From contig CATLLJ010000012.1 of NCBI GenBank assembly GCA_950022495.1, positions 1 through 64,000 on the forward strand: DNA of 64,000 bases, read 5' to 3'. Source of the stretch: an uncultured bacterium. GTDB lineage: Bacteria > Cyanobacteriota > Vampirovibrionia > Gastranaerophilales > Gastranaerophilaceae. Below the pieces are notes generated by a model. The model saw only the letters and a list, made by a program, of their open reading frames with translations. It did not search any database and was not told the DNA's origin. Both the position numbers and the translations under genes were made by a program. Shown here piece by piece: positions 1 to 60,200 of the stretch (position 1 is the stretch's first letter; each line of letters begins with the position of its first letter).

Positions 1-137
1 TTTAAGTATTCTGGTGTATTTAGTTGTTTATTCGTGCCTTCTACATTATTTTGTTTCGGCACGGTTTAGTTTTTCTTTAGCTTTTTAGGGGGTATTTTTT
101 ACATTTCTAAATATTGTATATCTTTGTGGATATTTCT

Positions 138-166
138 AGTATAACATTGTTTTATTAATTTTGCAA
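138..166 (-). promoter_or_regulatory. Putative sigma-70 promoter reading out of the left window edge
   Basis: On the minus strand TTGCAA (161-166) and TATACT (138-143) are separated by exactly 17 bases. Transcription would start near 131 and run left out of the window. The predicted leader holds a CGTGCC/GGCACG hairpin (33-38 with 58-63) and no open frame, so the gene served lies outside. It lies just beyond the stop codon of the ABC permease, so whatever follows on the minus strand may have its own promoter. Nothing else is visible in bases 1-181. Confidence 0.4.
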
Positions 167-181
167 GGGTTTTGGTGAATA

Positions 182-1063
182 TCAGTTTTCATTATACACT
201 AATTTCTTTCTGAAACGCCACTGAATTAAGGTCAAAACAAGGATTATTACAAATAGTACATAAGCAATTGCACTCGCTTTACCTATGTGAAAATATTCAA
301 AAGCATTCTTATATATTGCATAAACAAGAACATTTGTACTATCGAACGGTCCGCCTTGTGTCATTAAATAAATCAAGTCAAATACTTGAAATGAGCTTAT
401 TGCAGTTATTATGACTACAAAAAATATTGTTGGAGATAATAGTGGAATTGTTACATTTTTGAATGTTTGGAATGCGTTTGCCCCGTCAATTTTAGCAGCT
501 TCAAACATACTTTGTGAGATTCCGGACATTGAGGACAGAAATATTATCATGTTATATCCAATAAGTTTCCATACTGATACAATAATAAGTGCTGACATTG
601 CATATTTTGAGTCATAAAGCCAATTAATATGGATTTGTAAAACTTGATTTAGCAGCCCGATGTTAGGGTCAAAAATCCACGCCCAAACAATTCCTACAAC
701 GACCATCGGGGTAATAAACGGTAAGAAATACGCAGTTTTATAAAATTCTGAGCCTCTTATTTTAGAATTCAAAATTGAAGCAAGAATTAGAGGAATGATA
801 ACCCCTAAAATTGAAGTTGATAGTGCAAAAAACACAGTATTTGTTAAAACTTTATAAAATAAATCAGAATTGAAGAGTTGAATATAATTTTCAAGCCCGA
901 CAAATTCTACAGGATTTAGCAAATCCCATTTTGTAAAACTAAGTCCAAATGAACACAGCATTGGAATAATTATAAAAATAAAGGTTCCTAATATTGCTGG
1001 CAGGATAAATATCCATGCAGCATAGTTTTGATTATTTATAAATTTTGCAAACAACTTTTTCAT
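182..1063 (-). CDS. Sugar ABC transporter permease (MalF/UgpA type)
   Basis: Inner-membrane permease subunit of a binding-protein-dependent sugar importer. At 293 residues with about six hydrophobic segments it has the family's usual size. The cytoplasmic EAA loop that contacts the ATPase is clear at residues 188-210 (EAAKIDGANAFQTF then IPLL). The N-terminus ends in a first membrane helix around residues 17-39. The ATG at 1063 is only 42 bases from the divergent phosphohexomutase start, so the two genes share a short promoter region. No solute-binding protein, second permease or ATPase gene is in view; they may lie to the left or elsewhere. The substrate cannot be told from sequence, though glycerol-phosphate or oligosaccharide is usual for this subfamily. 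Confidence 0.88.
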   Translation of the reverse strand: MKKLFAKFINNQNYAAWIFILPAILGTFIFIIIPMLCSFGLSFTKWDLLNPVEFVGLENYIQLFNSDLFYKVLTNTVFFALSTSILGVIIPLILASILNSKIRGSEFYKTAYFLPFITPMVVVGIVWAWIFDPNIGLLNQVLQIHINWLYDSKYAMSALIIVSVWKLIGYNMIIFLSSMSGISQSMFEAAKIDGANAFQTFKNVTIPLLSPTIFFVVIITAISSFQVFDLIYLMTQGGPFDSTNVLVYAIYKNAFEYFHIGKASAIAYVLFVIILVLTLIQWRFRKKLVYNEN

Positions 1064-1105
1064 GATATGATTTTATTATATTCTAAAGATTGGGAGATGT
1101 GAATT

Positions 1106-2536
1106 ATGCAAAAATATGAACACGCATTTGGTAAAAATGATATAAGAGGAATTTATAACGACGATATTACTGAAGAGTTGTATTATAACATTGGTTTCGG
1201 ATATATTGCATGGCTTGAAAAGCATACTGGAAAAATGCCTGTAGATTTACGAATAAGTGTTTGTATGGATGCAAGATTGCATTCACCATCTTTAAAAACA
1301 GCGTTAATTAAAGGTTTAGTCGATGCAGGTGTTACATATATTGAAGATTTAGGTTTGGCTCCTACGCCTATCGGTTACTATTCCGAGATTGCTCATAATT
1401 TAGACGGGGCAATGATTATTACTGCTAGTCATAACCCGAGTGAGTACAATGGTTTAAAAATGACTTACAACAGACAAACCTTAAACGAAGTTCAGATTAA
1501 AGAAGTAAAAGCACTTACTTTTGATAATTGGAAGAATTTGCCGGATGATATTTCTGTTCAAGATTACAGCAAGTCAATTTTGGCTGAATACATTGCGGAA
1601 ATGAAAGAGAAATTCGGCGAGATCGGTAAAGGCATAAAAGTTGTTGTTGACAGTGCAAATGCAACAGGCGGCATTGTTGGTCCTCAATTATATAGAGAAC
1701 TTGGCTGTGATGTTATTGAATTATTCTCTGAGCCTGATGGAAGATTTCCGAACCATCACCCTAACCCAAGTGTTTTATCAACATTAGAAACCCTTTCTAA
1801 AACTGTCATTGAAAATAAAGCAGATGTTGGTATTGCTTTTGACGGCGATAGCGACAGAATCGGGGTTGTAGATTCTAAGGGAAAACCTTTGACCGGTGAT
1901 AAGCTTTTACTTATTTATGCAATGGATATAATTGAACTGAATCCAACTGTAGTTTCTGAGGTTAAATGTTCACAGGTATTGTATGATACTATAAACAACG
2001 CCGGCGGCAATGCTGTTATGTGCAAAACCGGTCACGGATATATCAAAGATAAAATGAAGGAAACAAATGCTATTCTTGGCGGTGAAATGAGCGGTCATAC
2101 TTTCTTTAAAGACAGATATTACGGCTTTGATGATGCTGTATATGCAGGTTGCCGCATAATTGAAATCATAGCTAAAAATAAAAAATGTAACCCTGAATTT
2201 AAGTTAGAAGATATCTTAGAACCATTTAATAAAGTATTTACAAGTGACGAAGTACGTTTTCCATGTCCAAATCACTTAAAAAAAGAAGTGCTTGAAGCAA
2301 TGAAATCTGAAGTAAATAATAATCCTGATATGTTTGGTTCTGAGATAATAGAAATTGTTACTTTAGATGGTATGAGAATCGTTTTTAACGGTGGATTTGC
2401 ATTAATTAGGCAAAGTAATACCGAACCTGTATTTACTCTTCGTTTTGAGGCAAATAACGAGGCTGAGTGCGAAAGATTTAAATGTACAATGACAAATTGT
2501 CTTGAAAAATTAGTAACAGTAAAGAATAACGCATAA
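1106..2536 (+). CDS. Phosphomannomutase/phosphoglucomutase (alpha-D-phosphohexomutase)
   Basis: Cytosolic enzyme that interconverts hexose 1- and 6-phosphates for nucleotide-sugar and polysaccharide synthesis. All four family signatures are present in order: the phosphoserine loop TASHNPSEYNG (about residue 108), the metal loop DGDSDRIG (about 246), the sugar-binding GEMSGHTFF (about 330), and the C-terminal phosphate loop RQSNTEP (about 436). The 476-residue length fits bacterial PMM/PGM (ManB/AlgC group). A GGGAG ribosome site precedes the ATG. The tatD start is two bases past its stop, so the two are co-transcribed. Whether mannose or glucose phosphate is preferred cannot be decided. Confidence 0.9.
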   Translation: MQKYEHAFGKNDIRGIYNDDITEELYYNIGFGYIAWLEKHTGKMPVDLRISVCMDARLHSPSLKTALIKGLVDAGVTYIEDLGLAPTPIGYYSEIAHNLDGAMIITASHNPSEYNGLKMTYNRQTLNEVQIKEVKALTFDNWKNLPDDISVQDYSKSILAEYIAEMKEKFGEIGKGIKVVVDSANATGGIVGPQLYRELGCDVIELFSEPDGRFPNHHPNPSVLSTLETLSKTVIENKADVGIAFDGDSDRIGVVDSKGKPLTGDKLLLIYAMDIIELNPTVVSEVKCSQVLYDTINNAGGNAVMCKTGHGYIKDKMKETNAILGGEMSGHTFFKDRYYGFDDAVYAGCRIIEIIAKNKKCNPEFKLEDILEPFNKVFTSDEVRFPCPNHLKKEVLEAMKSEVNNNPDMFGSEIIEIVTLDGMRIVFNGGFALIRQSNTEPVFTLRFEANNEAECERFKCTMTNCLEKLVTVKNNA

Positions 2537-2538
2537 AT

Positions 2539-3318
2539 ATGAACAATCCATATATAATAAACACACATTCTCATGTAAATATGTTGAAGGATACAAATAT
2601 TGATTCTGCAATCAAAAATGCCCAAAATAGCAGAATAATCACCATTGTCCCTTCATCAACTGCACAAGATATTTTTGAGGTAGATAGTTTTATTCAAAAA
2701 TATAATGATTTATATGGATATGTCGGAGTTTTTCCGGAAGAGGCAAAAACTTTTACTGATAAAACTCTTAATGATATGGAATCTATTATTCGCAGCAATC
2801 ACAAAATTATTGGAATCGGTGAAATTGGTCTGGATTATTACTGGGACAAATCATTTATTGAATTACAAAAAGAAATTTTTATTAAGCAGATTCAATTTGC
2901 AAACCAGATGAATTTGCCTTTAAATATTCACTGCAGAGATGCTCATTTTGACACACTGGATATTCTTAAAAAATACAATAAAAATTCAACAGCAATACTG
3001 CATTGTTTTTCCGGCAGTCTTGATTTTGCAAAAGAATGCATTAAAGAAGGAATATATATTGCACTCGGAGGTGTTGTGACTTTTAAAAATGCAAAAAAAG
3101 CAAAAGAAGTTGCTCAAAATATTCCAATCGAATATTTACTTCTTGAAACCGATGATCCTTATTTAACCCCTGTTCCATACAGAGGAACGGAAAATCAGCC
3201 TGCGTATGTATCGTATGTTGCACAAGAAATCGCGAATTTACGGAACACAACAATTGATTTTATTGCAGCCGAAACCACAAAGAATGCGTTAAAAATATTT
3301 CCAAAACTATCTTGTTAA
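2539..3318 (+). CDS. tatD: TatD-family metal-dependent hydrolase (DNase/3' exonuclease)
   Basis: TIM-barrel nuclease of the amidohydrolase superfamily, implicated in DNA repair and 3'-end trimming. Metal ligands are visible in order: the N-terminal HSH (residues 8-10), GEIGLDYYW with the bridging Glu, NIHCRDA, LHCFSG, and LLETDDPYLTP near the C-terminus. The 259-residue length is standard. It follows the hexomutase by two bases and converges on a minus-strand gene, overlapping its end by 12 bases. Family members include TatD, YcfH and YjjV types; this short stand-alone form is closest to the YcfH/TatD core, so the symbol is a family label. Confidence 0.88.
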   Translation: MNNPYIINTHSHVNMLKDTNIDSAIKNAQNSRIITIVPSSTAQDIFEVDSFIQKYNDLYGYVGVFPEEAKTFTDKTLNDMESIIRSNHKIIGIGEIGLDYYWDKSFIELQKEIFIKQIQFANQMNLPLNIHCRDAHFDTLDILKKYNKNSTAILHCFSGSLDFAKECIKEGIYIALGGVVTFKNAKKAKEVAQNIPIEYLLLETDDPYLTPVPYRGTENQPAYVSYVAQEIANLRNTTIDFIAAETTKNALKIFPKLSC

Positions 3319-3732
3319 AACATTTTCAGGCTTTTTTGATAAATTTAATTCTATATATTTATAGATATTCAATATAATTCCGGGTTGGAAGAAATAATTG
3401 TTATCCGCAGGAGTTATTTTCAGCATTGCTTGATTTGTGTTAACATTCAGCACTGTAGCCAGAAATTGCTTATTTACAGCAGTAAACAGAACATATCCTG
3501 ATTTCGATTGAACTTCATCAATGGTGAATCTATTAGCGTTTATTGCGGCAATTGTTAGATAAAACAATGAAACATTGTCTGTATTAAAAACTTTGGTACA
3601 ATTTTCATATTTTACATTTTGAGCTGTAATCAGAGTGCTCAAATTCAACTGGTCATCTGCAGCATAAGATGATACAACAGAAGATGTCAAAAGTAATGTA
3701 AATACAATTAAAAGTTTTATAATTCTTTCCAT
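3307..3732 (-). CDS. Small exported protein of unknown function
   Basis: A 141-residue protein with a clear Sec signal peptide: a basic start, a hydrophobic core over residues 5-18, and a likely cut after SSYA (about residue 24). The mature part is about 115 residues, mixed polar, with no domain I recognise. Its start lies 16 bases inside the 3' end of polA, so it is probably translationally coupled to polA. It converges with tatD at the other end. The tight overlap with a replication gene need not mean a shared function. Expected location is periplasmic or membrane-associated. Confidence 0.7.
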   Translation of the reverse strand: MERIIKLLIVFTLLLTSSVVSSYAADDQLNLSTLITAQNVKYENCTKVFNTDNVSLFYLTIAAINANRFTIDEVQSKSGYVLFTAVNKQFLATVLNVNTNQAMLKITPADNNYFFQPGIILNIYKYIELNLSKKPENVLTR

Positions 3733-6569
3733 GATTCACCTATATTTATATCAACAACAAGCGGAACATCTAACGGCTGCCCGAGTTCCATTGCTTCTAC
3801 TACAAGTTTTTTAACCTGTTCAAGTTCTGACTTATCAACTTCAAGCACAAGTTCATCATGAACCTGCATTATCATTTTTGTTTTTAAATTATACTCTTTT
3901 AATTTAGCAGCAAAATCAATCATTGCAAGCTTCATAAGATCAGATGCAGTACCTTGAATAGGATGGTTAATTGCTGCTCGTTTTGCAAATTCTCTAACCA
4001 TGGAATTTGAACTGTTTATTTCATTCAATAAATATCTTTTACGACCGAATATAGTTTCAACATAGCCTTTTTCTTCAACTTTGAGCATTTCATCCTGCAT
4101 ATAAGCTCTAATGCCAGGATAAGTCAAAAAGTATTTATCAATAAACATTTCAGACTCCTGAGGAGTAATTTTTAGAGCCTTAGCCAAACCGTATTTACTT
4201 TGTCCATAGACAATACCAAAATTTACTGCCTTTGATTTATAACGCATTTCTTTGGTAACCTCAGATGGTGCAACTTCAAATACTTTAGAAGCCGTTAATG
4301 TATGTACATCAATTCCGGAATTAAAAGCATCAATAAGGTTTTTATCCTGAGAAACATGGGCTAACACCCTGAGTTCAATTTGTGAATAATCAGCCGACAA
4401 AATTAAGCTGTTATTTTTATTTTCGGGAACAAAAGCCTGACGAATTTTATTACCTTCTTCAGAACGAGTTGGAATATTTTGCAAATTTGGATTTGAAGAA
4501 GATAATCTGCCTGTAACCGTAACAGCTTGATTGTAAGTACTATGAATTCTATTATCACGAGAATCAATCAATGCAGGCAAGGAATCAGTATAAGTTGATT
4601 TTAGTTTAGCAAACTTTCGATATTCCAGCAAAAGTCTTGCAATTTCATAATCTTCTGCTAATGCAGTCAGAACTTCTGCACTGGTTGAATTTTTAGATTT
4701 CCCGCGTTTTTTGCGTGATTTAAGCTGCAATTTGTCAAATAAAATATATCCGACCTGTTTAGGAGAGTTTATATTAAAACCTTCGTCAGCCAGCTCAAAT
4801 ATTCTGGATTCAAGTTTTGATAATTTTTTATCAAAAAGTGTTGTTAAAGTTTTTAAATATTCAACATCAACAGTTACACCGTTAAATTCCATATTCGCAA
4901 GAACATGAGCCAGAGGAATTTCTATTGTTTCAAATATATTGTGTTCTTTTTCATCCAGATTTGAATTCCAGAATGCACTAAGTTTGAATAAGCTTGCAAT
5001 TACATCTCCTGTGTAATTTTTTACTGTATCTAAATCAAGATTATTAAATTTCATTTTTTTATTATCTGAAATAACAGTAGGCAGTACATGCTCAATACGT
5101 TCCATACATTGAATATCAAAATCAGCATTGGCATTAGAATCTTTTATATAACTTGCCAGCAAGGTATCAAAAATTACGCCTTGAATCTCAATACCAATTA
5201 GTTTTAAAACATTATATTCACTTTTAATATCGTGTGTTATTTTTTTTACGGAAGGGTTTTCAAATACAGTTTTCAATTTATCCTTCACAAACTCAATATT
5301 TAATTGATTTTCAATATTGTGAGAAATCGGGATATAATATGTCTGAGCCGGCAAATTATCATTTGTAACCTGAAATGAGTTGTTGTATTCATATCCGGAA
5401 TTAACACCCAATGCAATACCGTAAATTGATGAATTCACAGCATTCTTAACATCTGCAAAAACCTTTAATGCGATAACAGAAGCTTTTGACAAGTTATCAA
5501 TCATATTCTCAAAATCAGTAGTATCGGTAATTAGAGTTGTGTTAAAGTGCAATTCTGACTTATTAACTTCTGTTTGAACTGCCTGAGCAAACAATCCAAG
5601 CTGACCGTTTGAAGCTGTAATATTTAATTCCGGCAACAAGTTTGTTTGTTGTGTCAATTCTGATTTATTCTTATCAAATGATTTTAGTATAAATTCAATA
5701 TTTTTCAAAAAGCTGTAAAATTGCATTTTTCGCAAGAATTCAGTAACATTAGCAATATCAGGTAAATCAATATTGGTTTTATCAAAATCAAAAGGCACAT
5801 CAACATCACAAACGATAGTTGCAAGATATTTACTAAGTTCAGCCTGTTCAACACCATTTTTAATCTTTTCACGTATAGCATTTCCAGAAATTTTATCAGC
5901 ATTACCAAGAACATTATCAACCGTTTTAAATTCATCAAGAAGCTTTACTGCTATTTTTTCGCCTATTCCTTTTATACCCGGAATATTATCAGACGTATCT
6001 CCCCTCAATGCTTTATAGTCAATAACTTGATCAGGATAAACACCTAACTTTTGATAAACTCTATCCCAATCATACTCCAGAAGTTCACCCTTTGAAGGTA
6101 TAATAACCTTAATACATCCGTTTTTTTGTATTAATTGGAATGAATCTTGATCACCTGTAAGAATTAAAACCTTATGACCCAATTCACAGGCACGTTTTGA
6201 AATTGTCCCAATAACATCATCTGCTTCAAAGCCTTCTTTTGTATAAATAGGTATATTAAAAGCCTTTAATCCTTCATATATAAGCCCCATTTGAATACGC
6301 ATTGGATCCGGCATTGCTACTCTATTAGCCTTATATTCTTCGTATTTTTCAGTCCTGAATGTATGATGAGAAACATCAAAGGCAACGCCAATCGCATCAG
6401 GTGATAAATTATCGTTTTTTAACAAGTCAAAAATCGCTTTAAAAAAGCCATATACAGCCCAGGTAGGTGTTCCATCCTTTGTTTGCATATTTGTACGTTC
6501 TAAAGCATAATACTGACGAAATGCTAATGCATGACCATCAATTAAAATTAAAGTTTTTGACTCTCCCAC
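3717..6569 (-). CDS. polA: DNA polymerase I
   Basis: Repair and lagging-strand polymerase, 950 residues. The N-terminal 5' nuclease domain spans about residues 1-290 (LIDGHALAFR, EADDVIGT, TGDQDSFQL). The middle 3'-5' exonuclease-like domain has lost the usual acidic residues: LKVFADV stands where FDTET-type motif I should be, and the motif III YxxxD is not kept, so proofreading is probably absent as in Taq and Bacillus Pol I. The polymerase domain is intact: motif A DYSQIELRVLAH, an O-helix with R, K and F in MRYKSKAVNFGIVYG, and motif C QVHDELVLEV. The start is GTG with GGGAG seven bases upstream. A small exported gene overlaps its end. Confidence 0.97.
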   Translation of the reverse strand: MGESKTLILIDGHALAFRQYYALERTNMQTKDGTPTWAVYGFFKAIFDLLKNDNLSPDAIGVAFDVSHHTFRTEKYEEYKANRVAMPDPMRIQMGLIYEGLKAFNIPIYTKEGFEADDVIGTISKRACELGHKVLILTGDQDSFQLIQKNGCIKVIIPSKGELLEYDWDRVYQKLGVYPDQVIDYKALRGDTSDNIPGIKGIGEKIAVKLLDEFKTVDNVLGNADKISGNAIREKIKNGVEQAELSKYLATIVCDVDVPFDFDKTNIDLPDIANVTEFLRKMQFYSFLKNIEFILKSFDKNKSELTQQTNLLPELNITASNGQLGLFAQAVQTEVNKSELHFNTTLITDTTDFENMIDNLSKASVIALKVFADVKNAVNSSIYGIALGVNSGYEYNNSFQVTNDNLPAQTYYIPISHNIENQLNIEFVKDKLKTVFENPSVKKITHDIKSEYNVLKLIGIEIQGVIFDTLLASYIKDSNANADFDIQCMERIEHVLPTVISDNKKMKFNNLDLDTVKNYTGDVIASLFKLSAFWNSNLDEKEHNIFETIEIPLAHVLANMEFNGVTVDVEYLKTLTTLFDKKLSKLESRIFELADEGFNINSPKQVGYILFDKLQLKSRKKRGKSKNSTSAEVLTALAEDYEIARLLLEYRKFAKLKSTYTDSLPALIDSRDNRIHSTYNQAVTVTGRLSSSNPNLQNIPTRSEEGNKIRQAFVPENKNNSLILSADYSQIELRVLAHVSQDKNLIDAFNSGIDVHTLTASKVFEVAPSEVTKEMRYKSKAVNFGIVYGQSKYGLAKALKITPQESEMFIDKYFLTYPGIRAYMQDEMLKVEEKGYVETIFGRKRYLLNEINSSNSMVREFAKRAAINHPIQGTASDLMKLAMIDFAAKLKEYNLKTKMIMQVHDELVLEVDKSELEQVKKLVVEAMELGQPLDVPLVVDINIGESWKEL

Positions 6570-52226: not shown

Positions 52227-53141
52227 ATGAGTATTGCAATTAATGGACAAGTGTATCCAAACAACAAAGTTATCGTTACAAAAAACAATGAAGTTTACAA
52301 AAACCCTTCAACATTAGTTGGAGTTGGAGCTGGTTTAGTTGGGATGACAGTAGCATCTCCAGTAGCTAATTTAACAAAAAAACCATTTGCAAAAATGGCA
52401 TTAGCCGAAATTAATAATTTAAGTACTCAGGGAGATTTATATAAAAATGCCGCAGCAAAGGCATTTGAGAACTCAGGTCTAGCCAATAAAGGAGTAGAGC
52501 TTATTGATGCTTCAAAATTATCAGCAGAAGAAATCAGCAAAATTACAAAAGAAGCAATGCCGAAATGGATTAACAAATTACCAGAAAAAGTCAAAGGTCC
52601 AGTAACATCAATGCTAGAAGCACAAATTAAAGGTCTAAAAAACGGTAATAATGCTGCATTTATTCCGAATTTAAATAAAATTCTTGTAAGCAGTGAAAAA
52701 ATGTCAGGTGCAACATTCCACGAAATGGGTCATGCACTTAACAAAAACACTCCTGGAATTGGCAGAGTTTTAGCGAAATTAAGACAACCGGGTATGATAT
52801 TAGCATCTGCAGCAGTATTAATTGGAGCATTTAAACGCAAAAAAGCTGAAGGTGAAGAACCTAAAGGCATCATTGACAGAACAACAACTTTTGTTAAGAA
52901 TAACGCAGGCAAGTTAGCATTTGCAGGATTTATTCCACTACTTGCAGAAGAAGGATTAGCATCAATTAAAGGTGCAAAAATGGCAAAACCATTACTAAGT
53001 CCTGAAGCATATAAAAATTTGAATAAAATGCACGGAAAAGCATTCTTAACATATCTGGGAGCAGCAGTATGTATGGGATTAGCAGCCAGAACAGCATCCT
53101 GGGTACACGATAAACTTTCTGCACCAAAAAGAATTGCTTAA
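52227..53141 (+). CDS. Membrane HExxH putative metallopeptidase
   Basis: A 304-residue protein with several hydrophobic segments (about 30-48, 190-202, 228-245, 272-288). The zinc motif HEMGH is at about 167 (ATFHEMGHAL), and LLAEEGLASIKG about 70 residues later could give the third Glu ligand, as in gluzincins (HExxH plus Glu). This resembles M48-like integral membrane proteases in layout, but not closely enough to name. The N-terminal MSIAINGQVYP followed by Asn/Lys-rich sequence is like other unknowns here. Its transcript ends at the terminator at 53151. Confidence 0.65.
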   Translation: MSIAINGQVYPNNKVIVTKNNEVYKNPSTLVGVGAGLVGMTVASPVANLTKKPFAKMALAEINNLSTQGDLYKNAAAKAFENSGLANKGVELIDASKLSAEEISKITKEAMPKWINKLPEKVKGPVTSMLEAQIKGLKNGNNAAFIPNLNKILVSSEKMSGATFHEMGHALNKNTPGIGRVLAKLRQPGMILASAAVLIGAFKRKKAEGEEPKGIIDRTTTFVKNNAGKLAFAGFIPLLAEEGLASIKGAKMAKPLLSPEAYKNLNKMHGKAFLTYLGAAVCMGLAARTASWVHDKLSAPKRIA

Positions 53142-53150
53142 TAGATAAAA

Positions 53151-53177
53151 TAAAGCACTCGTTTAATGAGTGCTTTA
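53151..53177. terminator. Bidirectional terminator between HExxH gene and prismane-like gene
   Basis: A ten-base-pair stem TAAAGCACTC/GAGTGCTTTA (53151-53160 with 53168-53177), with a T-run on the plus strand. Its 3' arm overlaps the stop codon of the minus-strand gene. Confidence 0.75.
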
Positions 53178-54785
53178 TTTTTGCCTGATATTAGACAAAT
53201 CTTTATATACATCACCTGTTAATTTTACATTATACAACTTGCGGAATGTTGTAAATATAGAAGGATTTAATAGAGTTGGCGAACAATCAGCCATATAAAT
53301 ATGCTTTGCATTTTCAGAATTTAAGGTAATTATATTAGATATTGTCAACACATCACATGTCGGAAAGAAAAAGTATATATTATCACTTGATACAGAATAA
53401 TTTTCAAAAAACTTAGATAATAAATTAATAACCAGCGGACAAAAATTACCAATATTTATTGATAATATATTTTCTTTATCTGTAAATACATCAGAAAAAT
53501 TTATCGCATATTCATTGTCATTTAATCTGCCTAACAATGTTTTAAAATACATTCTCTGCACTTCGGAATAAGGATTTATACCAATTATATATAGTCGTTC
53601 AAATTTATTAGATTTTAAATTTTTAGAAATTTCTTGAAACTTAGATAAAATTTCGCTCTCATTATAACCAATAAATGTTGAAGGCTTTGATTTACCACGT
53701 GCAAAACCTTTTGCCTGTTCAGCAGCATCAATCAATTCTGTATAGTCATTATTTTTAATTTTAATAACGCCTTTTGGTACAACATAATCGCAAGAATACA
53801 ATCTGCCCCTATATAGATACTCTGAATTCTTTTTAGTAGTTTTTGTTAATAATATAGAGCCTGGAAATGTTGAAAAATCTAAAATTGAATTTTCTGTTTT
53901 ATCGCCAAAATGCCCGATTAAATTTTCAAAATCTTTGAATTTTCTTAAAGCATGAGCTATTAAAAGATTTGCATGAGTGTATATATCAATATTTTTACCT
54001 TCAGTTTCTTTCAATAGTTCATACAAATTTTCAAAATTATTTCCACTGACAAGAATAGCTTTTCCCTTTCTTGTAGATGTAGAAACCTCGGTATTTTCAA
54101 TTTGCCCGAATTTATCTATCAGCGAATTGCTAATCTGTAATTGCAGCTTAAAATCAGATTTTGCAAGATTTGAAATAAGCTTAGATAGTTCATCTTCTTG
54201 AATATTTGACTGATTTAAGGAGTCTAAGGCTGATAAAATTTCATGATAAATTTCATCATCAAAAAAATCAATGTCATTTAAATTAATCAAATTTGAACAA
54301 CAGCTTTTTATTACAATTTCTAATATATCAATTAAATTTTTCAATCTGGTTGATAACTTTTTATATCTGGATAAAAACAGTTTCTCACCTGCAGAAATAG
54401 CTTTTGCAATTGGTGTGGAATTATCTATATTAACGGTCTTTTTTAATATTGCAGATGGCATATTTTTCTTTATAGAAAGTTTTTTATAAGCATCTCTTGT
54501 ATTTTCAAGAAGAAAGTATTCTTTCATTACCATAGAATATAGTTGTTCTTCATTAAATTCATTAATTGACACAAGAGCCGCAATATCACTAACAATATCA
54601 TATTTTATTGACTTGTTATTTGCCCCTAAATTTTCCAGTTTTATGACATAATAAGCAATTTGCTGCAAGAAAAACATAACCAGTTCCTGCAGTAAAAATA
54701 TATTTGGAGATACAGAACACGCACCTCTGGATGTACACTCATTTGTGTCAAGATACAAATGATTATTATCATTATAATTTTGCAT
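53175..54785 (-). CDS. Degenerate hybrid-cluster (prismane)-like protein
   Basis: A 536-residue protein with the layout of hybrid-cluster protein/CODH-type enzymes. AILVSGNNFENLYELLKETEG and IDIYTHANLLIAHAL (about 245-285) align with the ILVSGHDL-type and YTHGEMLPAH motifs, and SFPG-type FSTFPGSILL follows. Yet the ligands of the hybrid cluster appear lost: Glu of THGEM is Asn, the TTNC Cys is absent, and GGCDG, the ACGKY Cys and SWYEQK have no match. Two Cys remain near the N-terminus (NECTSRGACS) and scattered ones near the end. It may bind another cofactor or act as a structural relative. A glutaredoxin lies five bases upstream. Confidence 0.62.
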   Translation of the reverse strand: MQNYNDNNHLYLDTNECTSRGACSVSPNIFLLQELVMFFLQQIAYYVIKLENLGANNKSIKYDIVSDIAALVSINEFNEEQLYSMVMKEYFLLENTRDAYKKLSIKKNMPSAILKKTVNIDNSTPIAKAISAGEKLFLSRYKKLSTRLKNLIDILEIVIKSCCSNLINLNDIDFFDDEIYHEILSALDSLNQSNIQEDELSKLISNLAKSDFKLQLQISNSLIDKFGQIENTEVSTSTRKGKAILVSGNNFENLYELLKETEGKNIDIYTHANLLIAHALRKFKDFENLIGHFGDKTENSILDFSTFPGSILLTKTTKKNSEYLYRGRLYSCDYVVPKGVIKIKNNDYTELIDAAEQAKGFARGKSKPSTFIGYNESEILSKFQEISKNLKSNKFERLYIIGINPYSEVQRMYFKTLLGRLNDNEYAINFSDVFTDKENILSINIGNFCPLVINLLSKFFENYSVSSDNIYFFFPTCDVLTISNIITLNSENAKHIYMADCSPTLLNPSIFTTFRKLYNVKLTGDVYKDLSNIRQK

Positions 54786-54790
54786 AATTA

Positions 54791-55027
54791 TTAATCCTGT
54801 TTATAATCTTTTAAATATTCAATAATTTTATCCGATTCATATAATTTATCATTAGTGAGAGGATTGTAAAGAAAAGGTACTTGATCAATACCTCCAATTG
54901 TAAGCAATCTTAATGTATTATCACTGTTAGATACATCGAATTTATTATAAGTAATATTATTTTCCTTCATAAAATCCATAACCTTACGGCAATATGGACA
55001 TGTTTCTAAAACAAATAAGTCTAACAT
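54791..55027 (-). CDS. Glutaredoxin-like thiol-disulfide protein
   Basis: A 78-residue thioredoxin-fold protein with the dithiol motif CPYC at 10-13 and the cis-Pro region QVPFL at about 54. The tail EYLKDY is usual. It is a small glutaredoxin without fusion. Only five bases separate it from the prismane-like gene downstream, so they share a transcript. It may reduce or load that protein. Glutathione or thioredoxin reductase (trxB, 46505) could recycle it. Confidence 0.85.
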   Translation of the reverse strand: MLDLFVLETCPYCRKVMDFMKENNITYNKFDVSNSDNTLRLLTIGGIDQVPFLYNPLTNDKLYESDKIIEYLKDYKQD

Positions 55028-55147
55028 TATTACCTCCTCTTGTGTATTTTAGTACTGCTTAAAAAAATTTTAATTACCTACAGGAATAATTAAGGAATAT
55101 AATTAATGCTAATTGCAAAAGTACAATTTTTATACTAAACTTTGCTT

Positions 55148-57199: not shown

Positions 57200-57562
57200 A
57201 TGATATTACTATTCGGCGAACAAGCAGCAAAAACAAAAGCTTCAAGCAAAAGTTCTACTGTAAAAAATCAACCAGTTGAAAATTCTGGAATTTTAGCAAT
57301 GAGCATGAGTGATGCAAAAAGTTTGTTAACAATGGGTGAATATGATACATATATCTCTTCAAGCCCTGTAGCAATAGATTATGCAATGTATGCAACAAGC
57401 GACTACTCAGAAGCAGATTCCGACGGCGGATTTATGAGCAATTTTTCTGCCGCAGTAGCATTCCTTGGTGGTGACGGAGGTTTCTTCGGCGGAAGTTCAT
57501 TTGATTGCGGTGGTGGATCTTTCAGTTGTTCTTCAGGCAGCTCATTTGCCTCTGTGTGCTAA
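57200..57562 (+). CDS. Small protein with a Gly/Ser/Cys-rich tail
   Basis: A 120-residue protein with an AGGAG ribosome site. The first 75 residues are polar, with no signal peptide; they begin MILLFGEQ. The last 35 residues are Gly, Ser, Phe and Cys: GGDGGFFGGSSFDCGGG, then SFSCSSGSSFASVC, with Cys at about 103, 109 and 120. Such tails occur in small secreted or structural proteins and in some RiPP precursors, but no modifying or export genes flank it. It ends in its own terminator and precedes two coiled-coil unknowns. Confidence 0.6.
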   Translation: MILLFGEQAAKTKASSKSSTVKNQPVENSGILAMSMSDAKSLLTMGEYDTYISSSPVAIDYAMYATSDYSEADSDGGFMSNFSAAVAFLGGDGGFFGGSSFDCGGGSFSCSSGSSFASVC

Positions 57563-57621: not shown

Positions 57622-58058
57622 TTGTGTTAGACACAAACATTCATAATGAAAGAGGAATGTTCTTCGTTAAAATTTTTCATTGTTGTAATCGATTGCTACG
57701 TAAGAGCTTAGCTCGACAGGTGCAGCAAAAGAAAATCTCGATAAAATGAAATGAGCCAGCAGGGGCAAAGCCCTCGCTCTAAAGGAAGGTTCGGAAACAT
57801 AGTTTCTGATAACTCGAGCCATTTAATTCAGCGTGTTTTTCTTTTTTCGGTTCTACTATTTCTTTTTGCGTCGCAATCAAAAAGAAAAAGTGAACAAAAA
57901 GGATTCTTTTAAGAAGACAGTCAAATAAGTTCAGCATGCAAAACATTAATCAATTGTAACAAAAACTTAACAATACCACTCAAAATATTAAAGATTCACG
58001 AAAATAAGCCGATTAATTGAATAAGAAAAAAGTTACAAGGAAATTGAAAGGACTTACT
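57622..58058. other. Intergenic island with several hairpins
   Basis: About 430 bases without a convincing gene. The stretch 57700-57830 is richer in G+C than its surroundings and has AGGGGCAAAGCCCT and GGAAACATAGTTTC hairpins. TTTCTTTTTG/CAAAAAGAAA (57859-57868 with 57878-57887) is a perfect ten-base stem with a nine-base loop. The region may be an RNA gene or a decayed mobile repeat. A weak -10 and the start of the 713-residue gene follow. Confidence 0.4.
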
Positions 58059-60200
58059 ATGGGATTGGCAGCTTCACAAGCAAGATTATTAACCATTACT
58101 GCTAGATTAGCTGATAATGAATTAAGATCTCAAACCATCAATAATGCAAAAATGCGTTTGGCTACTCAAAGTTCCCAGGCAAGTGAAAACTATGTTAACG
58201 CATTGAATCAAGCTAGTTTAATGTTCACAAACTATGATTCAACCGGTGCTGAACAATCTCAGTTGTTAACTTTTAATGCATTAACAGGATACAGCCAATA
58301 CAATAACCAATATGGATTAGCTAATGCTGCTGGTATGATATTGGTAAGCGAAAATGATGCTGTTGCATTTGAAAAAGCTAATGGCAACCTTAATGCATTC
58401 TTAAAATCAAAAGGTTTAGAATATAACACAACTTACTTTGAAGAATTATGCGGTAAAGAAGGAAGCTATGTAAATGAATTATATCCTGAACCATTCAAAA
58501 AGATTGGTGTAGATGAACTTCAAGCTATGTACGAAGCTTACGGCAGCTACGAACATTCTGTTGAAATGGAAGAATATGACAAATTATACTCAGCATACAC
58601 AACAGCTTCTGAAGAATTAAATAAAGCAGTAAAAGAACTAATGCCCGGATATTTAAAAGGTGAATATATAAAAAATGAAGCAAATAGTCCTGCAGTATCT
58701 AGTGTTAATGGTTCACTTACTCTAAACACTAATAAATGGCATGATTTTCAAAAGGCAATGACAGGTTCAAATAATAATACCTATAATATTAATAATTTAA
58801 AAAATAAAGGCTATATAACCGAAGATGCCTATAATTACTTCAATAACTTTTTCAATCGAGTTAATGGAAAAGACCCTATGGTTACTGTAAGCGGTACTAA
58901 TTTAATTGTAAAAGAAAAATTTGAAACTACACTTTCACATACTGAGGCTAAAGGTGAAAACCCAGAAACATATACTTTAGATGATGAAGTAACATTTACA
59001 AAAGATAAAACTACAGGTTGCTGGACTGTAACACTTCCTGATAGTGGTTCCGGTAAGGTTTATGATGAAGATGAAGAAGGAAACCAAATTCTTGCTTATA
59101 CATATAGCTTAACAGGAGGAATTATATCTGGAACTCCTACAATATATACAGATATAAAAGACGTTATCAGCAAACTACAAGTAAGTGAAGGAACTTCTGT
59201 AAGTACATTTGAAGCTCAACCAGATAGTGATGGCAACATGAATGTAGTTGAAACACTAACAAGCACATATTCAACTAATGATGAGAAAAAAGAGTTTATT
59301 GATTCTTTATTTCATGCAATCTATGACTGTATTATAAACCAGGATGGCGTTATAAATGATCAACAATTCATTAATGGATTATTAGAAGATACCACACAAA
59401 AAATTACTGGTGAAGATGCTACCGTATTAAAATCAGGAAAAACTCTTAATGAAATTAAAAATACATTTGAAAGTGCAAAACAAGCATTTTTCCAATTTAT
59501 TGATGCAAATGCAAGCGATAGTAATGGAGATTATAAGACAAATAATACATTAGAAAACCTGCTTAACTCTGGCAAAATTATAATAAAAGACTTACAAGAT
59601 TTAGACTTCACAATGAAACTTCTTGGCGGCAGTGTTTACGACACAGATAAGAACAAAATTGACGCCAGCGGAGTTCTTATGACATCAAACTTCAAAACAG
59701 TTGTAAGTGATTTCATTATCAAAAACATGATTAGCGAAACAGGCGAACCTAAATATGCATGGGTTGATGAAAACGATACCGGCAACAAAGGAAACGCTGA
59801 TGCTAAAGCTCAATGGTATACTAACCTCTTCAATAGAATGAAACAAGGATATAAAACTCTTGAAAACGGTCTTGCTTCTTCTCCAGAATGGATGGAATTC
59901 GCATTACAAACAGGTATTGTTACAGTTGAACAAGTTGACAAAACATACAACTGGAAGTCAATTGACTACAAAACTTGCTCTAAAATCACAGAACAAACTG
60001 ATAACAGTGCAGCAGTTGCAAAAGCTGAAGCTGAATATAGCAGAGCAATGAATGATATCAATGCAAAAGACAGTATTTATGATATTGAATTAAAAAATAT
60101 TGATACAGAACACACAGCTCTTCAAACTGAATATGAATCAATCAAAGGTGTAATTAACAAAAACATTGAAAGAGTATTCAAATTTAATCAGAATGGTTAA
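58059..60200 (+). CDS. Large coiled-coil protein, MGLAASQARLL type, unknown function
   Basis: A 713-residue protein. I start at ATG 58059 (MGLAASQARLLTITARL), preceded by AAAGGA; an in-frame TTG at 58017 would add 14 basic residues. There is no signal peptide. The first 60 residues are amphipathic helix with Asn, Gln and Arg, the last 80 form another coiled coil, and the middle holds beta-rich and Ser/Thr/Asp-rich parts. This N-terminus resembles abundant unknowns of the lineage, and in feel recalls flagellar or secretion hook proteins. It converges with a second coiled-coil gene. Confidence 0.68.
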   Translation: MGLAASQARLLTITARLADNELRSQTINNAKMRLATQSSQASENYVNALNQASLMFTNYDSTGAEQSQLLTFNALTGYSQYNNQYGLANAAGMILVSENDAVAFEKANGNLNAFLKSKGLEYNTTYFEELCGKEGSYVNELYPEPFKKIGVDELQAMYEAYGSYEHSVEMEEYDKLYSAYTTASEELNKAVKELMPGYLKGEYIKNEANSPAVSSVNGSLTLNTNKWHDFQKAMTGSNNNTYNINNLKNKGYITEDAYNYFNNFFNRVNGKDPMVTVSGTNLIVKEKFETTLSHTEAKGENPETYTLDDEVTFTKDKTTGCWTVTLPDSGSGKVYDEDEEGNQILAYTYSLTGGIISGTPTIYTDIKDVISKLQVSEGTSVSTFEAQPDSDGNMNVVETLTSTYSTNDEKKEFIDSLFHAIYDCIINQDGVINDQQFINGLLEDTTQKITGEDATVLKSGKTLNEIKNTFESAKQAFFQFIDANASDSNGDYKTNNTLENLLNSGKIIIKDLQDLDFTMKLLGGSVYDTDKNKIDASGVLMTSNFKTVVSDFIIKNMISETGEPKYAWVDENDTGNKGNADAKAQWYTNLFNRMKQGYKTLENGLASSPEWMEFALQTGIVTVEQVDKTYNWKSIDYKTCSKITEQTDNSAAVAKAEAEYSRAMNDINAKDSIYDIELKNIDTEHTALQTEYESIKGVINKNIERVFKFNQNG

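Follow-up and report, generated by a model that had tools for sequence, protein, structure and literature searches.

A hybrid-cluster protein family without hybrid-cluster ligands, often encoded beside a glutaredoxin, in Gastranaerophilales

Hybrid-cluster proteins (Hcp) are iron-sulfur enzymes for nitric oxide detoxification, and the locus analysed here raises the question of what such a protein may do once the residues that hold its catalytic metal are gone. The locus lies in a stretch of 64,000 nucleotides from a member of Gastranaerophilales, and this whole stretch is called the window hereafter. Two open reading frames claimed by the first-pass annotation are present on the complementary strand, an Hcp-like (Prismane) gene at 53175..54785 (536 aa) and a glutaredoxin (Grx) gene with a CPYC site at 54791..55027 (78 aa). 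The five-base spacing claimed for them also holds, except that the glutaredoxin gene does not start at that point but ends there, five bases before the ATG of the Hcp-like gene if its stop codon is included. The gap between the glutaredoxin gene and a divergent UDP-GlcNAc 2-epimerase gene (55028..55141) is presumed to be the promoter region. At the other end, a hairpin with a T-run on both strands (53147..53182, z of -7.9 and -7.3) overlaps the 3′ end of the Hcp-like gene and is a probable two-way terminator common to this gene and a convergent one; a consensus scan did not list it. The convergent gene (52227-53141) encodes a 304-aa protein with a HExxH-like stretch (HEMGH) and hydrophobic segments, for which no Pfam match was found. 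Pfam matches are also absent for a Gly/Ser-rich 120-aa frame at 57200-57562 and a 727-aa frame at 58017-60200.

The relation of the protein to Hcp is not a chance similarity. It matches the Pfam Prismane family with an E-value of 1.5e-21 (77.1 bits, cut-off 27), the NCBIfam hydroxylamine reductase model with 3.8e-53 (180.9 bits, which is under the equivalog cut-off of 367) and the Hcp of PDB entry 8cnr with 2.4e-27, while a profile-profile alignment with Hcp spans 523 columns at 9.6e-58. The scaffold motifs noticed at first pass are therefore backed by significant HMM similarity, and this is the one Prismane match that the genome holds. AlphaFold models reached a mean pLDDT of 86.3 with an alignment of 24 rows and 89.5 with 65 rows, residues 1-14 staying below 50 in the latter. 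The best PDB matches of the model are all Hcp (Z 32.9, rmsd 3.6, 504 aligned residues for 1e1d) as opposed to a Z of about 17 for CO dehydrogenases. Since the models match Hcp over about 500 residues and CO dehydrogenase with a Z of only about 17, we assign the protein to the Hcp fold, nearest to class I/II. Class I (D. vulgaris 1e1d/1e2u, M. thermolithotrophicus 8cnr) and class II (E. coli Hcp, 7de4) have the fold in common with it over about 500 residues at Z 32-33, whereas about 400 residues are aligned for class III. It also has the YTH and FPG motifs of class I/II and two of their four N-terminal Cys, but no hybrid-cluster ligand, no CXXC and no WYEQK, and it carries two new Cys, C477 and C501. 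The Ni,Fe-CO dehydrogenases (CooS, including CooS-V) have the superfamily fold in common with it but are far less similar than Hcp, and the four Cys invariant among 24 orthologues would be too few for the Cys-rich C-cluster and interface cluster of CO dehydrogenase.

To read the ligand columns we aligned the protein by MAFFT to the Hcp of E. coli and to canonical Hcps from its own order, and used the profile-profile alignment as well; positions carry D. vulgaris numbers. At the hybrid-cluster ligands (1 His, 2 Glu and 4 Cys) the window protein has H244 replaced by N, E268 by N, C312 by T, C406 by N, C434 by V, C459 by G and E494 by D, so that 0 of 7 are kept, and Leu stands at K496. The earlier reading of this loss as Glu, Lys and most Cys was correct for Glu and Lys and too low for Cys, all four hybrid-cluster Cys being lost. 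Of the Cys that hold the N-terminal [4Fe-4S] cluster, C3 and C6 are gone, while C15 and C21 correspond to C17 and C23 of the window protein, the two N-terminal Cys already noticed; they form a CX5C (codons at 54717..54737, complementary strand) that is the remaining half of the ancestral four-Cys motif. In the canonical Hcps used as controls, E. coli included, none of the 12 positions is altered (15 of 15), and the alignment method therefore detects ligands where they are present. Among 159 family members, 112 keep none of the hybrid-cluster ligands, 36 keep one, 10 keep two and one keeps three, and the C3 column has Cys in none of the 159. Ligands at shifted positions, against which a careful alignment had been advised, were ruled out, as the only Cys invariant among the 24 orthologues are C17, C23, C477 and C501. 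A pseudogene or an assembly error was also ruled out, since nearly every relative has an uninterrupted frame (locus L013 has one internal stop); the pseudogene is rejected because the protein belongs to a monophyletic family under purifying selection, with dN/dS of 0.04-0.23 in 13 of 13 pairs from a very diverse set. A repurposed Hcp fold without metal ligands, as first proposed, is thus strongly supported.

How far this loss extends can be seen from the family, for which we use analysis labels for bacterial families (f), genera (g), loci (L) and genomes (G); f1 is the one family of Gastranaerophilales that includes the window's genus. We collected 159 distinct degenerate Hcp-like frames of at least 440 codons from 36 genera of f1, keeping among them one paralogue row (L044), the overlapping rows of one g50 genome (L084/L111) and truncated rows. 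In the window's genus 33 of 36 genomes have a match, the window's own included. At 1e-10 the profile finds a match in 359 of the 383 genomes of the order, a count that includes canonical Hcps of other families, and a few f1 genomes (G225, G310) have only a short canonical-type match. A quick, midpoint-rooted tree of 109 rows places the f1 rows in one clade (support 100), apart from the canonical Hcps and from the decayed Hcps of f6 and f7. Presence of the family outside f1 is not supported by the searches: judged by E-value alone, no non-f1 match in 386 genomes of the phylum was better than 1.4e-60, and the best one in the order was 6.8e-82 (G049, with the f7 intermediate L033). A single-protein scan of a named genome collection, which is a weak search, returned one locus, in a MAG of Gastranaerophilales. 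Tandem copies occur, three in a row in G387 (g53; L235, 811-5682) and two in G254 (g50; L236, 417-3685); the middle G387 copy is without both N-terminal Cys and keeps the C-terminal pair with one more Cys.

Other decayed Hcps were encountered in the same order. L033 of f7 (1..4500) keeps all four N-terminal Cys, E268, C312 and C406 and is without H244, C434, C459 and E494, while L037/L038 (f7) and L045/L046 (f6) are partly decayed with other ligand sets lost. These five resemble the f1 family in losing ligands but differ in which are lost or kept, they are without the C477/C501 pair (L033 has a Cys at 501 alone), and their branches are separate from f1. Decay of Hcp thus seems to have happened more than once in Gastranaerophilales. 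Some genomes of the window's genus carry, in addition to the ligand-less protein, a short canonical Hcp of about 510-520 codons with all ligands (loci L047, L049, L051 and L052). These are related to copies in f6 and f7, and their patchy presence in the genus hints at transfer.

What the f1 family has conserved in place of the ligands is a second pair of Cys. C477 (codon at 53355..53357, complementary strand) lies in the loop that bears the WYEQK motif in Hcp, where the profile-profile alignment sets it one residue before the Glu ligand, and C501 (53283..53285, complementary strand) follows the next β-strand. Counting only rows that have both columns, both Cys are present in 148 of 157, neither in 9 and one alone in none; the corresponding figures for C17/C23 are 125, 27 and 3 of 155. 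The search for conserved non-canonical Cys that the first-pass annotation called for has therefore ended in a new all-or-none pair. On a tree of 153 rows built without the Cys columns, C477 and C501 each change 7 times, and they change together in 6 of 6 independent pairs (p 0.031). In the AlphaFold model, strands 470-474 and 495-498, which precede C477 and C501, are consecutive in the C-terminal domain, and the two loops may therefore well touch. We infer a protein that is thiol-active rather than metal-binding. The explanation we tentatively prefer, at somewhat under an even chance, is that the metal site has been replaced by a thiol site served by the glutathione-glutaredoxin system and that the protein works in thiol redox.

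This explanation leaves the N-terminal CX5C unaccounted for, and it is here that the main alternative enters. C17 and C23 together with C477 and C501 could hold one four-thiolate site, either [4Fe-4S] or Zn; the catalytic cluster would be gone and the electron-transfer cluster would persist, half of its ligands now being supplied by a different domain. The counts give it some ground: with 6 of the 159 rows set aside as incomplete, 97 of 153 scored rows have two Cys in the N-terminal segment and two in the C-terminal loops (2+2) and 24 have one and three (1+3). In g36, g41 and g51 the N-terminal segment has one Cys (C14) and C502 is added, while in g32 C23 is lost in two of the three rows where C500 is present, and L151 is a five-Cys (2+3) intermediate. 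As other Cys appear where C17/C23 is missing, a set of four thiols, in the form 2+2 or 1+3, and hence a shared metal site is suggested. Structural support comes from class III Hcp (PMC10502027), where the N-terminal cluster domain leans on the Glu434 loop, which corresponds to the C477 loop here. According to the same paper, loss of one Cys ligand of the N-terminal cluster leaves that domain disordered, and the Glu434 loop and the Trp461 region move by about 5.3-5.8 Å, the loop going towards the vacated place, so that these parts touch in a related protein. Yet all 9 sequences without C477/C501 retain C17/C23, with no replacement Cys evident in them (L185, one of the 9, falls outside the 2+0 class of 8 rows as it has other Cys near the C-terminal loops). 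In the 6 independent pairs of the 153-row tree the N-terminal pair never changes the same way as the C-terminal pair, and the swap from 2+2 to 1+3 amounts to two events, which is not significant. Further, g47 has a 1+2 pattern, the middle G387 copy is without any Cys in the N-terminal segment, and residues 1-14 fall under pLDDT 50. Because the N-terminal pair outlives the C-terminal one, we rank a single four-Cys site second, as possible though doubtful. Its fullest form, a [4Fe-4S] or Zn site re-anchored between the N-terminal tail and two C-terminal loops (C17, C23, C477 and C501, with the variants C14+C477+C501+C502 and C17+C477+C500+C501) and reduced or loaded via the neighbouring glutaredoxin, is a shade more doubtful again.

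The window's Grx scores 33.1 bits against PF00462 (cut-off 22.9) and lies below every NCBIfam cut-off among the matches listed. The genome contains no other PF00462 match, and it matches the glutathione synthetase family and the GCS2 ligase family. With its CPYC site and Pfam score it is like known glutaredoxins (PF00462, GrxC-like) but differs from them by the genomic tie to the Hcp-like gene. This tie was surveyed by the motif CP[YFH][CSA] in a short upstream frame, so that a Grx with another motif would escape, and 6 of the 159 loci without room upstream were outside the census. The pair does recur: a Grx gene immediately precedes the Hcp-like gene in 87 of the 153 loci that have room for one. 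These come from 16 of 36 genera and include every such locus of the window's own genus (36 of 36), as against 0 of 20 for canonical-type or other-family Hcps. For 84 of the 87 linked loci the two genes are -32 to +27 nt apart. In the remaining 20 of 36 genera the two genes are not side by side; among genomes without an adjacent Grx, or related to such, a Grx was found somewhere in 41 of 41 checked, and linkage is therefore not needed. Seven of the 87 linked Grx (L013, L122, L125, L127, L130, L101 and L172) have CPYS in place of CPYC and have thus lost the second active-site Cys, which fits a glutathione-based one-thiol mechanism. It speaks against a thiol site served by the Grx that the C477/C501 pair is lost while Grx still adjoins in g21 (L119, L194) and g42 (L101, L172).

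Two subfamilies of Grx are involved. Type A, the short kind found in the window, stands apart from the Hcp-like gene in g37 and g44. Type B (GrxC-like) stands apart from it in basal genera and in f6/f7 and adjoins it in g36, g41, g51 and g42; it scored 72 and 67 bits against PF00462 in the two tested and only about 26-33 bits with the profile of the window's kind, being picked up by the motif. As each subfamily also occurs apart from the gene in related genera, the neighbourhood must have arisen at least twice. We also looked at 14 genomes chosen for missing the Hcp-like gene: 10 have a Grx, which is type A alone in 10 of 10, and in the other 4, which are 77-89% complete, no Grx was seen. A Grx dedicated to the Hcp-like protein is thereby ruled out, type A having work of its own. 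The first-pass suggestion that the protein is served by the glutaredoxin therefore has only indirect support, given the 20 genera where the genes are apart and the genomes that keep type A alone.

It may be asked, as a side question compatible with every reading given here, whether the neighbourhood is only an old gene order (epimerase, Grx, Hcp-like) that carries no functional meaning. The upstream epimerase-type cluster is kept in 51 of 85 linked loci, so that the linkage may partly be plain shared gene order, and the persistence of Grx without the Hcp-like gene speaks for the same. On the other hand, the second Grx subfamily adjoins the gene in a different clade, where a different neighbour lies upstream (20 of 85 linked loci), the pair is maintained while its downstream neighbours fall in 32 clusters among 84 loci, and the spacing is of a few bases. 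We therefore consider gene order as the whole explanation rather unlikely.

A further reading is a catalytically idle scaffold or sensor whose old cavity would take up a ligand, a gas or a partner, the Cys pairs being structural. This could account for the loss of all catalytic ligands, for a gene dispensable enough to have no match in 20 listed f1 genomes (some of them incomplete) and for the canonical Hcps found alongside it in part of the genus (L047, L049, L051, L052). Chemistry is indicated, however, by strong purifying selection over a very diverse set and by two loop Cys that are kept or lost as one, and disulfides with a structural role are not common in the cytosol of anaerobes; we regard this reading as improbable.

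Returning to the thiol-redox explanation, its steps may be put as follows. Within one bacterial family, and early in its history, a class I-type Hcp would have given up the catalytic Fe-S-O cluster while retaining the fold. In the third domain, two strands that follow one another would each be capped at the C-terminal side by one of the new Cys; C477 and C501 would lie above the cavity that the cluster once filled and make up a site that is either thiol/disulfide or glutathionylated. Its re-reduction would fall to the glutathione-glutaredoxin system of the cell, whose Grx is encoded just upstream in the window's lineage. The substrate is the weakest step; by analogy with the parent family it would most likely be a small oxidant or nitrosative species (NO, an S-nitrosothiol or peroxide) or an oxidised partner, and the protein may thus still work near the chemistry of that family.

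With respect to known Hcps, the gene is beside Grx instead of the reductase Hcr that adjoins class II. For class I Hcps, PMC10210160 states that the electron donor is not known and that functionally related genes are usually missing from the vicinity, and according to PMC10502027 all described Hcp classes keep their cluster ligands. In the open-licence literature we found no paper that deals with a ligand-less Hcp or with the Hcps of Gastranaerophilales.

The window protein therefore belongs to an Hcp-derived family in non-photosynthetic, gut-type relatives of cyanobacteria. Since a direct test showed the defining ligands to be absent, neither Hcp nor hydroxylamine reductase is a fitting name for it, and automatic labels of 'hydroxylamine reductase' or 'Prismane' in these bacteria would mislead. 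The family is a large, conserved branch of Hcp without the cluster, found repeatedly beside a glutaredoxin. Together with the graded intermediates of f6 and f7 in the same order, it offers a natural experiment on what the Hcp/CO dehydrogenase fold can do without metal, where evolution seems to have converted an ancient metalloenzyme to a different task.
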